Source: a virus. Taken from it: a stretch of 41,194 nt of DNA. Both the position numbers and the translations under genes were made by a program. The notes under the pieces are model-generated. The model was not told the DNA's origin. It was given only the letters and a program-made list of their open reading frames with translations, and did not search any database. The DNA lies in IMG/VR virus record IMGVR_UViG_3300045241_000024, positions 1 to 41,194 of that record; one strand, written 5' to 3'. Below, one piece after another: positions 7,936-14,602 of the stretch. Numbering within the stretch: the first letter of the stretch is position 1; every line of letters starts with the position of its first letter.

Positions 7936-8337
7936 TTACGACTCCTTTGGAAAGAAAAAGCGCCCCAGTGGTTCCGTAGGAGCTTCCGGTAGCTTGCCCG
8001 TCAGGCAAGGATTTCCTGCAACGTGCAGATAATCGTCAATATACTTGACGAATGGCGTATGGACATAGCCGGGCTGCTTGCGAATCCAGTCGCAGCCATC
8101 GCAGATGTAATGCCCTTCCCGATTGTCGCATTCAAAGCATTTGGCACGATCGCGGGTACGGGCAAAGTTGCGGACCACCACATTCTTGCAGTGCGAACAG
8201 GTCATGGTATCCTGCTCGAATACCTTGCCTTCCCCGCATTGCTTCGGATCATAACCGGCCTGCAGCGCCACGTCCTCCGGCAAACCAGGGGAAGCCCGAT
8301 GATCCACCATGATATAGCCCATCTGCTTGGCCATCAC
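7936..8337 (-). CDS. Zinc-finger phage protein next to portal
   Basis: This 133-aa protein carries three CxxC pairs (MTCSHCKN, CFECDN, ICDGCDW) and a further Cys in PKQCGEGK, so it probably binds two zinc ions. The N terminus GYIMVDHRASPGLPEDVA is a conserved block that I know from small proteins beside portal genes in alphaproteobacterial phages. No function is established. The start overlaps the portal stop by four bases. A role in head assembly, or as a packaged protein, is suggested only by location. Confidence 0.75.
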   Translation of the reverse strand: MMAKQMGYIMVDHRASPGLPEDVALQAGYDPKQCGEGKVFEQDTMTCSHCKNVVVRNFARTRDRAKCFECDNREGHYICDGCDWIRKQPGYVHTPFVKYIDDYLHVAGNPCLTGKLPEAPTEPLGRFFFPKES

Positions 8338-10892
8338 TGCAATCCTACCATTTTGCCGTCAGGCCCTCTTACGATCTGACGCGCGGTCTCTCCCTTAATT
8401 ACTCCAATAGCCCTTCCATCTGGCCCCCGTTTGACTTCTACCGGGGCCCTGATGTGGTCGTGCAATCCCTTCAAATGCTCTGAAATCTTGCCAATGGCGT
8501 CCGCTACATGATTCGCCGTGTCGTTGGGAACCTTGCCATGCTTGGCCATTTCATCGTGATGCTTGGCCTTCGCCAGTTCTTGCTTGCGATCGTGCTCCTC
8601 GCGAGCGAATTGTGTTTCGCGCTCCTGCACCTCGCGATCCTCGCCGGCTTTCTTCTCCTCGGCTCCCGCTTTTATCATGGCAATGTGAATGTCCATTTCC
8701 TTCATCCGCATGTCCATCGCCTTCAGCCGGCCTTCCCACTCCATTTCCATGTGCTTACGCTGGGTCTCGAGCATGGAGTTTTGTTTTTCGGACTCCGCTT
8801 CCACCTGTTGCGCCTGCACTTCTGCTTGCGCCTTCATCATGTCGATCTGGTTTTGCTGGCCCTCAGACTGGATCTTGTGCTGTGCAAGTGCCATGTCGGC
8901 CTGGGCCTTTATTTCGTCCGGTGACGGCTTTGGCGGCTGGCCGGCCTTGGCTTTGGCATCGATTTCCGCCTTGTCAGCGAAATCCTCAATGGCGGCTTCA
9001 AGATCACGGCCGACTCGAAAGCCCCTAACAGCAAATTGCAGCATTTTAGCCGCAAGTGGAGCAAATTCCGGTATTGCCTGGCTAACTTCAGATGCGACTT
9101 GTACAAACTTAGTGACTTCAGAAACAAACTCGGTTCGCTGGGCCTTCTCTTGCTCCCGGTCGCCTTGCACCGTCGAATCGGTTTCGATGTCAATGCGGAA
9201 TCCTCGCGTTTTATCCTGTTTTAGAAGCCCGATCGCATCCATGATGAGCTGCAGCTTGCGCTGCTGCTTCATTTCAGGCGGTTCTTCGGGAGGCGGCCCT
9301 GGAGGTGGAGCGCCACCGGGCGGCTGGAACGGCACGACATTTGATCCCGCCTGACTGGCTTGAACAGGCGAGGCCATCATTCCGGGAGGCGATTGCGGCA
9401 CGTTCCCAGGTGACTGCATTGGTGGCAAGGCTGGCGGATCCATGCCCTCATCATTGAGCGCACCGGAGACCTGGATCAATGTTTCAGGACGATACTGCTC
9501 GGAGATGATTTCTCCCATGATACAGATAATATCACGGCAGAATCGCGCCACGTCATCTTGTCGCTCCTGCAAACGTGTACTTGAATTGTTAGTCTTGAGA
9601 CGCTGAGCGCCCATCGTTTCTCGCGCGTCACTGGTTCCTCGCATGATATCGGAAATGCCAGTTGTACGGTCCAGATCCGCAATAATCTGTTGTCGTACCT
9701 CGATGAGAATCTTAAGAGTTCCAGCGATGGCTTCCACCGGAACCCAATCGATCGCACCTTTCAGCCCTCCCTTTTCGGCAAACATCGCCCAGGAATCGAC
9801 CGGAATCAGATTTGGTTCTGAGGCCTCCTCAAACACCCGCTTTAGGGCCTGTGCCGATGCATCGTAAACCCCGACGATCTTACAGGATGCCGTCAGGATA
9901 TCGATTCGCTTGGAAAGGTCGTCGATCTGGTCGTATTGGTCCTGCGATTCGGCATAGTCCGGCACCGGAATCGTGGTGTCGTTGGTCATCGTCGCCGTCA
10001 AAGGGCATGGACAGGGGAAAAACCCCTCAAGCTTCAAGGGATCATCAACTTCCTTGACAACTTTATCCCAACCTTCCGCAACGAAATAGACCCTGCGCTC
10101 CGGCTTCCACCAGATTTCATAGACCACCGCCTGCATGCCGTCCTTGCCGGTGACTTGCGTTGGCGTGGTGGATGAGGATTTGAGCGGTTTTTCATCCCCG
10201 ACATTGTGGGTGAGGGGAATCTTCTTCCAGTCCTTGAAGCCAGCCTCTTTCATGTCCGATCGGGACATATAGAGCTTGCGGCCCTTGCCCTCTATTTCCG
10301 GCTCGATCCGGGCATAGGCAGGGAATGTGTAATAGTCCTGCCAATGGCAATATGTGACCTCGATGCTTTCGGCGAGGAGTTCGCGTTCTGCTCCATCATC
10401 TCGCGAATCATCGCCAGTTTCAGGTTCGCCACTCGCGTCTGTAATGTCATCATCTCCCTTTTGTGGCGGGGAGATAGACTCTCCAAAGAGAGGATTATAT
10501 CGAAGCCAGACCTGACCCCTTCCAACCAGGAGATAATCGTTTCGGGCTCGTCTGATGGCTGCGTCAAATCCTGACATCTGGACTTCATAGCGCAGGTTCC
10601 TTTCCAGGATTTGACTGGCCACCCGCCCTACCGGATCTTTGTCCAGAAAGCGCCTTTCAGCGATCGGAACTGGCACTCTCGAGTAGATTGCGGGCTTTAA
10701 TGTCTCGGTATTGGCCCAGAATAGATTTAACCGCCTAGCCACGCCGGCCGAATTGTCGTCCCGCTCATCCCGGTAATGGCGCGCGATCTTCTCCCCGCGC
10801 TTGTGCCATTTGTTCATTTCCCGGTCGCATTGCTCGATCTGGCTTTTCCACCAGACCGACATTTCCTGGTCTTTGGTGATCGGGATTGCCAT
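8334..10892 (-). CDS. Portal protein, very long, with C-terminal coiled coil
   Basis: This 852-aa protein is the dodecameric vertex through which DNA is packaged and ejected. The first ~480 residues match P22-like podoviral portals (WWKSQIEQCDREMNKWHKRG, then NLFWANTETLKPAIYSRVPV, DIMRGTSDARETMGAQRLK). A Pro/Gly/Met-rich hinge follows (about 490-560). A long Gln/Lys/Glu helix (about 640-790, QADMALAQHKIQ to REEHDRKQELAK) would form the barrel that reaches into the capsid. The length exceeds most portals (about 450-730 aa), and the extra residues are in this helix and hinge. The start shares one base with the preceding stop (TGATG). Confidence 0.88.
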   Translation of the reverse strand: MAIPITKDQEMSVWWKSQIEQCDREMNKWHKRGEKIARHYRDERDDNSAGVARRLNLFWANTETLKPAIYSRVPVPIAERRFLDKDPVGRVASQILERNLRYEVQMSGFDAAIRRARNDYLLVGRGQVWLRYNPLFGESISPPQKGDDDITDASGEPETGDDSRDDGAERELLAESIEVTYCHWQDYYTFPAYARIEPEIEGKGRKLYMSRSDMKEAGFKDWKKIPLTHNVGDEKPLKSSSTTPTQVTGKDGMQAVVYEIWWKPERRVYFVAEGWDKVVKEVDDPLKLEGFFPCPCPLTATMTNDTTIPVPDYAESQDQYDQIDDLSKRIDILTASCKIVGVYDASAQALKRVFEEASEPNLIPVDSWAMFAEKGGLKGAIDWVPVEAIAGTLKILIEVRQQIIADLDRTTGISDIMRGTSDARETMGAQRLKTNNSSTRLQERQDDVARFCRDIICIMGEIISEQYRPETLIQVSGALNDEGMDPPALPPMQSPGNVPQSPPGMMASPVQASQAGSNVVPFQPPGGAPPPGPPPEEPPEMKQQRKLQLIMDAIGLLKQDKTRGFRIDIETDSTVQGDREQEKAQRTEFVSEVTKFVQVASEVSQAIPEFAPLAAKMLQFAVRGFRVGRDLEAAIEDFADKAEIDAKAKAGQPPKPSPDEIKAQADMALAQHKIQSEGQQNQIDMMKAQAEVQAQQVEAESEKQNSMLETQRKHMEMEWEGRLKAMDMRMKEMDIHIAMIKAGAEEKKAGEDREVQERETQFAREEHDRKQELAKAKHHDEMAKHGKVPNDTANHVADAIGKISEHLKGLHDHIRAPVEVKRGPDGRAIGVIKGETARQIVRGPDGKMVGLQ

Positions 10893-12151
10893 CAGGTCCC
10901 GCCTAGCAATGCGCCAATTGTTGGATCTTGCTTCGGAGACCCAAAAACAGGCGAATTCTGTACCTGACCAAATGCCGGAGAAGCCATCGCACCGGCAAGA
11001 CCATACTTCTTCAGGATATCGATCAGCTTGTCATTGAATACGACGTAGTTTGATGAGCCTTGACCAGCGCCCCTTGATCCTTGGTCTAGATATTTGATGC
11101 CAGGGATGCCGGCTTGTTGAAGGGCTGGCACGGCTGCTGCTTTACGTCCCATGCTTTCATAAAACTTTGCACCAGATTGTGCGGCATTCCAATCTTCCCA
11201 TGCTGCGTCACGCTCCCTTGCCAGCCGATGCCACCCTTGTTCATTTCGCATCATATTGGTGACAGGATCGCGATCAGAAGTCAGAGCATCCATTTGTTCT
11301 TGAAGTATTCTGACTTTGGCGGCAGACTCCTTTGGATCGGTCGTACCTTTTAGGTTTTGATATGCTTCGCGGACATGTTGCGATTGCTCACTCAGCGGCT
11401 TATCCCAATCCAAGAAGTGCTCGGGATCGGCGTTGATGTTGACTTCGTACATTTTGCCGGGGTTTGGATCAGTCAGCGTAAACTTGTGGTCTGGATTAGT
11501 AGCAAAATCCAACGCTTGCGTTATCGTTCCGTCTTTCGGATTTCGCTGTAAGTCGCTCTGAAGATGTTCAATGGTTTTACCTAAATCTCCCCGATTTTCC
11601 TTGAAGCGAGAGGAAAAAAATCTTTCAAAGGAACGCGGGCTATCGTCAAGCATTCCTTCTCGATAGGGAGTGTTTATCTTGGTTTGGCCTGCATATTGCG
11701 TCAGTGCATCGCGATAATACTTCGCGACTGGTTCTGACTCCGCAAAATACAATCCATGCCCGTAAGCCTGCGCGCCCTCGCCCGTGCCGATCTTATCCAG
11801 CGAAAATGCATCGAAGTCATGCGGCGAACCGTGATAGGCCCGGATCGGTCCAGCACCTAGAGCCATTTCTGAGCCTCTGAGCGGCACGCCAGCAACCGCT
11901 CCCGTTCCCATTGGTAGCATGGCAGCGTTAAAGACCGGCGATGGATCATATTGACCTGTATCAGTATAGAGTTGCGCCGCACCAAACGCCTTCTTGGCGG
12001 TATCTCCAAGTCCCGCATAAAGCCCGCTAATCAAACTCGCTAAACCGGCCGGCTGCTGCGCTATCTCCCCTGGACTTCCCGTTCCAAAGGGCATCCCGGA
12101 TACGTTGGGATCGTATCCCCGATTCATCAGCATTTCAGCCATTGTGGGCAT
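10892..12151 (-). CDS. ADP-ribosyltransferase-like protein between terL and portal
   Basis: The product is 419 aa. An N-terminal Gly/Ala-rich region (1-100) precedes a segment starting PIRAYHGSPHDFDAFSLDKI (about 102-121), then GHGLYFAESEPVAKYYR (131-147). Near residue 380 comes a closing NYVVFNDKLIDILKKYG. The order H (YHGSP), Y (GLYF) and an acidic/Asn-Asp strand matches phage ART-like domains attached to large polyvalent or virion proteins. These transfer ADP-ribose from NAD to host targets, though some members have lost activity. Position in the head block suggests it may be packaged and injected. The acidic catalytic residue cannot be fixed by eye. The end overlaps the portal start by one base. 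Confidence 0.65.
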   Translation of the reverse strand: MPTMAEMLMNRGYDPNVSGMPFGTGSPGEIAQQPAGLASLISGLYAGLGDTAKKAFGAAQLYTDTGQYDPSPVFNAAMLPMGTGAVAGVPLRGSEMALGAGPIRAYHGSPHDFDAFSLDKIGTGEGAQAYGHGLYFAESEPVAKYYRDALTQYAGQTKINTPYREGMLDDSPRSFERFFSSRFKENRGDLGKTIEHLQSDLQRNPKDGTITQALDFATNPDHKFTLTDPNPGKMYEVNINADPEHFLDWDKPLSEQSQHVREAYQNLKGTTDPKESAAKVRILQEQMDALTSDRDPVTNMMRNEQGWHRLARERDAAWEDWNAAQSGAKFYESMGRKAAAVPALQQAGIPGIKYLDQGSRGAGQGSSNYVVFNDKLIDILKKYGLAGAMASPAFGQVQNSPVFGSPKQDPTIGALLGGT

Positions 12152-12278: not shown

Positions 12279-12605
12279 TCATTTGTACTTTCCGGCCCTA
12301 TCAGCCTTATATTCCTTAGAGTATTTCTTCAAAAACTCTGTATTATAAGCCCTCACCATAGCTGATGATTTAGCATAGTTTGAGTTGGCAAGTTGCCATT
12401 CTGGAGTAGCCCTAACATTTTCAGGTGTCATTCCCATCAATCCACCGCCTGATATGGCTCTCAACGCCTTACTATGGGCTTCCATTTGTTCCCAAAGTTT
12501 ATCTTTGACAGCCTTGGCTTGGCTATAATCTATGGCAGACTTGATCTGCCCTCGAAGATCGGAGCCGCTAAACCTTCCATGCTCGTCATGGTTAGGATTA
12601 CCCAT
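12279..12605 (-). CDS. 108-aa protein in an insertion-like position
   Basis: The product begins MGNPNHDEHGRFSGSDLRGQ, an NHDxxGRFS motif common at the ends of phage structural and packaged proteins. It continues as basic helix and ends in a Lys-rich tail. The start overlaps the preceding stop (TAATG). The gene is bracketed by a 28-bp duplicated gene end (12152-12179 and 12605-12632), as if it had been inserted and the target sequence duplicated. Its codon use is also more AT-rich than its neighbours to the eye. Function is unknown. Confidence 0.65.
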   Translation of the reverse strand: MGNPNHDEHGRFSGSDLRGQIKSAIDYSQAKAVKDKLWEQMEAHSKALRAISGGGLMGMTPENVRATPEWQLANSNYAKSSAMVRAYNTEFLKKYSKEYKADRAGKYK

Positions 12606-12632
12606 TAGATCAGGAATCCCCAGGAATTGACG
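12605..12632. repeat. 28-bp direct repeat, right copy
   Basis: This copy is the true 3' end of the 145-aa gene and matches 12152-12179 with one mismatch. The two copies bracket the 108-aa gene. Confidence 0.85.
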
Positions 12633-13042
12633 TTCACTGCCGTAGCCGTACCATCCGCTGTAGTCGTTACCGTGATGTTTGTATTCACCGCAGAAGCCGG
12701 AATGGACTGGTTAAAATTAACCGTCAGTGTAGAGCCGGCCGCCGAGGACAGGAGCTGATAGACCTGCGAACCACCGGCCAGGCCGGCCACCGTAATCGGC
12801 CCCACTGCAGCTGTGCCGCCGATCGCTGATACCGTGAAACCGGAGATATAGGCTGTTTTCAGGGCTGCAGACGTTAGCGTGCCAACCACCGCACCTGTCG
12901 TGCCGCTAGCATTGCCAGCAATCGCTGTAACGTTTGATGGCAGGGCGGGGTTTGAAATAACCGGAAGCGGGTTGGAGGCTGAAAGCACCGCGCCGGCCTG
13001 AATGGGCGTGACAGGATTGAGCGGATTGGTGTTGTCGGTCAT
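12605..13042 (-). CDS. 145-aa Ala/Thr/Val-rich structural protein
   Basis: This is a low-charge beta protein. Its strands include SNVTAIAGNASGTTGAVVGT, YISGFTVSAIGGTAAVGPIT and TLTVNFNQSIPASAVNTNIT, with the closing motif VNSWGFLI. The composition resembles head decoration or stabilising proteins, and it lies between the terminase and portal genes. A GGGGTG ribosome site precedes the ATG. Its gene end is duplicated at 12152. Function is inferred from composition and context. Confidence 0.65.
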   Translation of the reverse strand: MTDNTNPLNPVTPIQAGAVLSASNPLPVISNPALPSNVTAIAGNASGTTGAVVGTLTSAALKTAYISGFTVSAIGGTAAVGPITVAGLAGGSQVYQLLSSAAGSTLTVNFNQSIPASAVNTNITVTTTADGTATAVNVNSWGFLI

Positions 13043-13057
13043 TTGTCACCCCAATTG

Positions 13058-13072
13058 GTAAGCTGTGCTTAC
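13058..13072. repeat. Perfect 6-bp inverted repeat next to parS-like site
   Basis: GTAAGC-TGT-GCTTAC lies four bases from the parS-like palindrome in the 72-bp gap between terL and the 145-aa gene. It could be a small hairpin or a protein site. Confidence 0.4.
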
Positions 13073-13075
13073 GTT

Positions 13076-13091
13076 CGTTTCACGTGAAACG
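13076..13091. promoter_or_regulatory. Perfect parS-like palindrome (ParB binding site)
   Basis: CGTTTCACGTGAAACG is a perfect 16-bp palindrome whose central 14 bases, GTTTCACGTGAAAC, equal the core of the chromosomal ParB/Spo0J site parS. A further half-site, GTGAAACA, lies at 13096-13103. The site is in the terL downstream gap. The phage has no recognisable parA or parB. The match is seen; binding by host ParB is inferred. Confidence 0.7.
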
Positions 13092-13114
13092 TTTTGTGAA
13101 ACAATTTCGCATAG

Positions 13115-14602
13115 CTATACACGAACTCGCCGCGTTTGCGTAGGCTGATCCCACAAATCATCCAAAGATACTTGGTTATGCGCGCCAACTCCCAAAATCT
13201 TTCCGGGCACACGCTTCTGTATGTCCTTGATGTATGGCCGGCTCATGCAGGCGTATCGGATTTCATCCGGTGCGTGATCCTCTGATTCGGTGTCCACATC
13301 CTCCGGTTTGTCGCTATCATGTTGCAAAGCGGGAAGAGTCCGAATCGAATCCCGGCAAGTCGAGAAGAAGTAAATCATTGGTCGCTCGCCATCCCCAATA
13401 AGCCTTGCCCTAAGCTGATCCCATCCACCCATTGAACCTCGTTTGGCGGTTCGGGTGTTGTCGGCCCTGCGAAAGAATACCCTATAAGGAGGAGCAGCCA
13501 TACGCTCCGCAATGCTAGGTCCGCCTTTGTTGCTGAAGCAGTCAGGATCAAGCACCCCATATGTTATGGCCGGATTGCCCTCTAAATCCCTTGGCTCATT
13601 CATTTCCCTACTGACAATGCCGGCCGCTATGTCCTCAACCGGGATCTTCAATCCGATGTTTGGGGCACTTGCACCGTACCATTCTCGATAGCGCACAAGA
13701 GCCCCTCTAGGTAGTAAAGTCGAATTAAGTTGATAGCTGTCGCTGACAACGGCCCACCAACCGATTGAGAATGGGCTAGCAGATCCCCAATCGCCCGATC
13801 TAAATCGCAACCAGTTGTCGGGGATTTCGAAGGGGGGTATGACATGCCTAGCCTCCGAGAATTCGGGGAAGAATGCGCCTTCAATGACCGACCAATCGCC
13901 CTCTAGCCAAGCACGGACAAGCTGAGCGTTACCAACCATTTGCAGGTTAGCCACATAATCCGCGCCCAGATAAGAGTTATCAGAAAGCTTGCTAGGTATG
14001 TATATGCGACCGCGTCGGACATGTTCCTTGGTCCAGGGATTCGTAAAGGTCTCATGAACTTCCCTCCAACCTAGTGGGGCCGGATCGATATATCGTGCGC
14101 GAACCCACTGATGTCCTGGACCACCAGGATTGCCAGTAGCGCGAAACCCACAAGGAATGCCGTGGCCAGAGCGCAGCGTTGCCATGAGTTTGAAGATGGG
14201 GGAAGGATTGGGGAAAGTCCCGATTTCCTCAATATAGACGCGGGTATGAGACCGGCCCTGGTAGCCGTCTGCGTCTGAGTCGCGATCGAGATAGGCGAAC
14301 TGGAACCGGGAACCGTTGGGGAAACGCCATAGTTTCTCTTGCTCATGGAATGTTGCCCCTAATGGTCCGAAAAGCTGGCGCGATCGCTCAATTGTATCAA
14401 CGAGTTGAGTGCGTTCACGTCTAAACATAATTGCGTTCGAATGTTCACCATAGCGGTCCTGGTGGCTGATAAACTCACCGAGCATTCCATCTGTCTTGCC
14501 GCCGCCTCGAGCGCCACCGAAGAAGACTTCAAAGATCGGGCAAGCGAGTAGAGCTGTCTGTGGCCCAGGCTGCGGCTCCCAGATGATGTTTTCATTGGAC
14601 AT
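13115..14602 (-). CDS. terL: Terminase large subunit
   Basis: This 495-aa packaging motor couples ATP hydrolysis to DNA entry and cuts the concatemer. The Walker A site is GGARGGGKT (29-37). The Walker B strand is VYIEEIG (122-128) and the coupling motif is ATGNPGGPGH (about 155-164). The C-terminal RNase H-like nuclease shows its acidic residues in RSGDWG (D271), YGVLDPD (D352/D354) and a final DEIRYA helix near 450. The length is normal. The start overlaps the small HTH gene by 11 bp. The parS-like palindrome lies just after its stop. Confidence 0.95.
   Translation of the reverse strand: MSNENIIWEPQPGPQTALLACPIFEVFFGGARGGGKTDGMLGEFISHQDRYGEHSNAIMFRRERTQLVDTIERSRQLFGPLGATFHEQEKLWRFPNGSRFQFAYLDRDSDADGYQGRSHTRVYIEEIGTFPNPSPIFKLMATLRSGHGIPCGFRATGNPGGPGHQWVRARYIDPAPLGWREVHETFTNPWTKEHVRRGRIYIPSKLSDNSYLGADYVANLQMVGNAQLVRAWLEGDWSVIEGAFFPEFSEARHVIPPFEIPDNWLRFRSGDWGSASPFSIGWWAVVSDSYQLNSTLLPRGALVRYREWYGASAPNIGLKIPVEDIAAGIVSREMNEPRDLEGNPAITYGVLDPDCFSNKGGPSIAERMAAPPYRVFFRRADNTRTAKRGSMGGWDQLRARLIGDGERPMIYFFSTCRDSIRTLPALQHDSDKPEDVDTESEDHAPDEIRYACMSRPYIKDIQKRVPGKILGVGAHNQVSLDDLWDQPTQTRRVRV

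Follow-up and report, generated by a model that had tools for sequence, protein, structure and literature searches.

A chromosomal-type parS site beside the terminase gene of a phage in which no ParA or ParB is recognised, probably an orphan site for host ParB

Phage-plasmids such as P1 and those found among the mycobacteriophages carry parS in their genomes and encode their own ParA and ParB. At parS, ParB closes as a CTP clamp and then spreads. The consensus of chromosomal parS is TGTTTCACGTGAAACA (PMC7383237), a sequence recognised by the ParB of most bacteria (consensus, PMC7383237; table, PMC7022226), and one parS is enough for partition (PMC7022226). The usual assumption is that host chromosome segregation does not concern phages that lack plasmid genes. 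The borrowing of a ParB made by another replicon is already known from two mobile genomes. In the first, Spo0J (ParB) helps to trap the genome of phage phi29 in spores, according to PMC9437464, which reports the work of Meijer et al. (2005). In the second, the parS-like sites of SGI1 bind the ParB of an IncC plasmid, and these copies stabilise SGI1 while destabilising the plasmid that supplies the protein (PMC10954446).

This study concerns a parS-like site in a virus record of 41,194 bp with a terminal overlap of 127 bp, analysed over its whole length and referred to below as the window. A perfect 16-bp palindrome, CGTTTCACGTGAAACG, lies at 13076-13091 and contains the 14-bp chromosomal core GTTTCACGTGAAAC at 13077-13090; measured against the consensus, the core is exact and the outer pair is C-G for T-A. 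No other even palindrome in the window reaches 16 bp (the runner-up has 14 bp), and exact copies of GTTTCACGTGAAAC are expected 0.00013 times per window from base composition and 0.00010 times under a first-order model. The palindrome is located in a 72-bp non-coding gap (13043-13114) between terL (13115-14602, minus strand), which codes for a terminase large subunit of 495 aa identified by PHROG matches, and the next gene in the late direction (12605-13042, minus strand), whose 145-aa product has no family match. The original prediction made from this DNA had described the exact core within a palindrome, the gap adjoining terL and the minute chance expectation, and all three hold. It had also called this the gap between terL and portal, which is incorrect, as three genes (12605-13042, 12279-12605 and 10892-12151) separate terL from the portal gene (8334-10892).

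Besides terminase and portal, the record encodes an ejection protein, a tail spike, fibre proteins, an amidase, an endolysin, a DNA methyltransferase and a RusA resolvase, and its early genes include small uncharacterised ones. Profile searches of the record gave no match to ParB_N (PF02195) or to the AAA_31 ParA domain (PF13614), a profile that does not extend to ParM-type or very divergent motors. Within the reach of these two profiles, partition machinery is missing from the window phage, as had been anticipated, and a ParABS system of its own is not seen; ParB_N was also not found in the relatives that carry an exact parS. Neither a tyrosine integrase nor a tRNA was found in the record and, with no recognised integrase or plasmid maintenance gene, nothing else in the genome points to a stable carried state. 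A search for terL in 84,980 bacterial genomes yielded distant matches only (about 30% identity), and no host was assigned.

How does this locus compare with the systems described above? Phi29 and the window phage both combine parS-type sites with the lack of ParAB, the arrangement expected of a phage that hijacks the host protein in the phi29 manner. The reliance of phi29 on a host chromosome-segregation protein, Spo0J, has been documented by others, whereas for the window phage the use of host ParB is a proposal. Phi29, however, has a spore-forming host and several sites, whereas the window phage is unrelated to it, has one perfect site by terL and shows no tie to sporulation. SGI1 resembles the window phage, as we read it, in being a mobile element with orphan parS copies and a ParB borrowed from another replicon, but it is an integrative element that mimics a plasmid parS, while the site in the window is of chromosomal type. 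The phage-plasmids share with the window phage the presence of parS in a phage genome and differ from it in their ParA and ParB. Finally, bacterial chromosomal parS sites have the identical 14-bp core, from which the site in the window departs by its outer pair (C-G against T-A) and by its location in a phage, away from oriC.

Given the excess over chance, the conservation as DNA and the lack of a phage ParB or ParA, a real orphan parS is the most likely identity of the palindrome. Host ParB very probably binds it and, if it does, the chances that the benefit lies in retention or positioning are even or slightly better. Our preferred reading, held with moderate confidence, is that the site recruits host ParB and that phage DNA would thereby be positioned or retained in cells that divide or do not lyse. 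Once the phage DNA has entered, host chromosomal ParB would bind parS, close as a CTP clamp and spread along the phage DNA, which would thereby bear a small copy of the host centromere complex. Host ParA, possibly together with ParB-loaded SMC, would then keep the phage DNA with the nucleoid or move it alongside, and the phage DNA would not be lost if the infected cell divided or stalled before lysis. The predicted bacterial-type parS in a phage without parAB is thus supported by conservation among relatives, occurrence in unrelated contexts, the fit to the consensus, the enrichment of the variant GTTCCACGTGGAAC and the absence of ParB and ParA domains.

Conservation is most direct in the gap itself. 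In the three nearest relatives (L002, L003 and L038), whose terL is 86% identical to that of the window over the aligned length, the same 16-mer lies between terL and the next gene, about 15 nt after the terL stop, as against 24 nt in the window. Only 18 bases around the site can be aligned between these gaps and that of the window. Since the 16-mer was kept while the rest became unalignable, the pattern reads as a footprint of selection on parS with occasional loss. The three relatives represent a single lineage, because all of them have one and the same terL sequence. In L004, also a close relative, parS is present as its right half only, directly behind the stop codon. Absence from close relatives had been named as a result that would speak against the site, and the outcome is therefore divided: retention in one clade of three, reduction to a half-site in the fourth relative. 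The recurrence in unrelated contexts and the synonymous codons fixed in terL, both described below, likewise point to a sequence kept by selection as DNA.

The two neighbouring elements of the original prediction are present where it placed them. The half-site GTGAAACA (13096-13103) adjoins the palindrome as a possible accessory ParB contact, and an inverted repeat, GTAAGC-TGT-GCTTAC, with a 6-bp stem occupies 13058-13072. Neither is found in the gap of L002, and a conserved role for either was rejected on that ground; the role of the half-site is accordingly doubtful, and the inverted repeat probably stands outside parS function.

Recurrence was assessed in a family set of 314 loci with related terL genes (3.15 Mb). 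The exact 14-mer GTTTCACGTGAAAC occurs there in 28 copies against 0.007 expected, in about 12 unrelated contexts, while ten control palindromes of similar make-up have no exact copy in the same 3.15 Mb. When all perfect 14-mer palindromes of the family were ranked without prior choice, parS came second, with 12 unrelated contexts, behind a GC-rich simple repeat, and the fourth place was taken by GTTCCACGTGGAAC, a known parS variant. This variant recurs inside terL in four loci (L457, L458, L468 and L480) and 2.1-2.4 kb upstream of it in two others (L053 and L483). On a terL tree of 303 rows, parsimony requires at least 14 changes in parS presence; relatives that gain, lose and move the site suggest the borrowing of a host chromosome-segregation protein. 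The benefit would be optional, as many 40-kb relatives (L005, L006 and most of the L070 clade) have no site.

In whole records, exact sites lie within terL or at most about 3 kb from it, upstream, inside or downstream of the gene depending on the lineage, and some one-mismatch sites are found farther away (G109 and G150). This clustering is suggestive and not firm: the loci were picked by terL and many records are short, so that only records of at least about 30 kb, from five independent lineages, inform the position. Simple partitioning does not predict an excess of sites near terL. Perhaps this end of the genome is the first to enter or to be packaged, which could favour the neighbourhood of terL.

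Other family members carry parS within terL, where it is spelled by the codons of VSRET (GTT TCA CGT GAA AC). The homologous spot in the window, terL codons 330-334 (13601-13615, minus strand), reads VSREM (GTC AGT AGG GAA ATG) and is not a parS. VSRET is present in 21 relatives, 14 of them with the exact GTTTCACGTGAAAC, six with one synonymous base changed and one with two; the one-base variants are GTTTCACGGGAAAC or its reverse complement GTTTCCCGTGAAAC. Ten of the 14 exact rows form one clade of near-identical sequences and are therefore counted as one lineage. By comparison, VRRET occurs at the same spot in 43 rows with about 35 spellings. Two loci that share the in-gene parS (L009 and L015) agree at 47 of 160 fourfold third bases, synonymous sites being near saturation, and codon usage gives the exact spelling odds of 3e-4 to 4e-3 per lineage. 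Saturation and codon usage together argue that the site in terL is kept as DNA and not merely as protein, and coding constraint as the sole cause was rejected by these codon tests. The one-base variant, in which half of a parS is joined to the centre of a Noc-type half, occurs in both orientations in separate terL lineages (L012, L429 and L494; L419, L424 and L428). It could reflect decay or a different ParB preference.

The site extends beyond this family. At least 120 stretches in IMG/VR carry the 14-mer, and the outer pair is T-A, giving the full parS consensus, in 69 of 120 among the matches listed. Over all viral contigs, the counts for the 14-mer and for a control are both lower bounds and yield no ratio between the two, so that the information lies in this outer pair. 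Fifty parS-bearing IMG/VR records were searched for ParB_N: 43 have no match at E 0.001 and four match above the curated cut-off, a result limited by the presence of fragments. Of 50,697 phage records, 315 match the 18-mer ATGTTTCACGTGAAACAT over at least 16 exact bases and none matches either of two control palindromes; the enrichment of the 18-mer extends to phages whose terminases are unrelated (phi29-like, Listeria and Gordonia phages). We also checked 15 cultured phages in which parS occurs at least once, exact or with one mismatch, and found no ParB_N in 13 of them (B103, phi29, Goe1, DSS3P8, Lpa804, Woes, P100plus, Huntingdon, Arian, Voltaire, CUB-FM, vB_BcoS-136 and CMP1). B103 (X99260.1) has sites at 10120 and 15611, of which one is exact and one a variant, and phi29 (NC_011048.1) has four one-mismatch copies, TGTTTCACGTGGAACA, at 10445, 15903, 17243 and 18760, one of them directly behind the packaging ATPase gene 16. 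As perfect sites occur without detectable ParB in cultured phages of laboratory hosts, namely B103 and Goe1 (Bacillus subtilis), Huntingdon (Arthrobacter), Woes (Gordonia) and DSS3P8 (Ruegeria), the question is directly testable.

The literature covered, which excludes subscription journals and preprints, yielded no survey of phages for orphan parS; the extent of the phenomenon appears to be new, host-ParB borrowing as such being known from phi29 and SGI1. We give an even chance to the broader proposal that such borrowing is common and convergent in ParB-less phages, virulent ones included, of Bacillota, Actinomycetota, Pseudomonadota and uncultivated hosts, and that it evolves so quickly that sites can come, shift and go from one close relative to the next and can leave their mark even on the terminase gene, in its codons and residues. 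If host-type parS is indeed present in many phages, host ParB would act generally as a host factor in the positioning of phage DNA, in its retention in non-lysing cells or in takeover of the host.

Other explanations share part of this evidence. ParB binding would follow equally, from the 28 copies against 0.007 expected and from the palindrome ranking, if phage parS amplified by replication served to pull ParB, and SMC with it, off the host origin, thereby disturbing host segregation or replication control and freeing resources. The SGI1 copies that destabilise the ParB-supplying plasmid (PMC10954446) set a precedent, and a decoy would leave the position of the site free, in line with its shifts between lineages. 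A decoy should, however, gain from many sites, whereas family genomes with an exact site have one (two in L484), and these stay close to terL instead of lying just anywhere; we regard this explanation as unlikely. Closeness to terL, with exact sites in or beside late genes, would suit a regulatory role, in which host ParB loaded at the site would extend across terL and the adjacent genes and hold down or postpone late transcription, perhaps sensing the state of the host, and ParB at a single parS can affect distant promoters (PMC7022226). Yet the site has no fixed relation to a promoter, being upstream of, inside or downstream of terL according to the lineage, which makes regulation less likely, and no promoter-like match was found on the minus strand of the 72-bp gap. 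Its probability is low.

Nearness to terL would also fit a packaging element, and the phage has small uncharacterised early genes; the palindrome might be recognised by a phage protein (a terminase, as at a pac element, or a repressor, for instance) and resemble parS by coincidence. But a pac site would be expected to change along with the terminase that uses it, and the same 14-mer recurs in families whose terL is about 50% identical; many near relatives package their DNA without it; the other enriched palindrome, GTTCCACGTGGAAC, is itself a known parS variant; and the 18-mer is enriched across the unrelated terminases mentioned above. This coincidence is very improbable. Least probable is an origin by chance, by TerL coding constraint or as an RNA hairpin or terminator, which is already hard to keep. 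VSRET does include favourable residues (RET), but it is spelled almost only as parS where the codons are otherwise free, and chance would give 1e-4 copies in the window and 0.007 in the family, where 28 are present. There is a terminator-like match at the palindrome; an intrinsic terminator needs a minus-strand stem-loop and a U run, however, and such matches are on the plus strand only, antisense to terL and the next gene. The sense-strand fold is ordinary (z -1.18), and both the terminator and the hairpin were rejected. Recruitment of host ParB by an orphan parS is the reading that we retain.

Some minor observations concern the same sequences. Four terL relatives (G035, G038, G044 and G050; loci L056, L061, L071 and L081) have ParB_N in an open frame of 447-553 aa; the first three have no parS-like site, and the single two-mismatch match of G050 overlaps its own ParB_N gene. 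In L070, L355, L356, L373, L382, L383 and others, perfect palindromes are crowded 100-600 bp upstream of terL. They comprise GGGCCCGGGCCC units together with 16-mers built as GTTG-NNNN-NNNN-CAAC, whose cores differ (e.g., GTTGTACGCGTACAAC and GTTGACCGCGGTCAAC), and in four members of this clade the palindrome-rich region also contains parS. Lastly, parS matches of 16-18 bp occur in Microviridae genomes of 4-6 kb, among them phi-CA82, Spiroplasma phage 4 and Microviridae sp. records.
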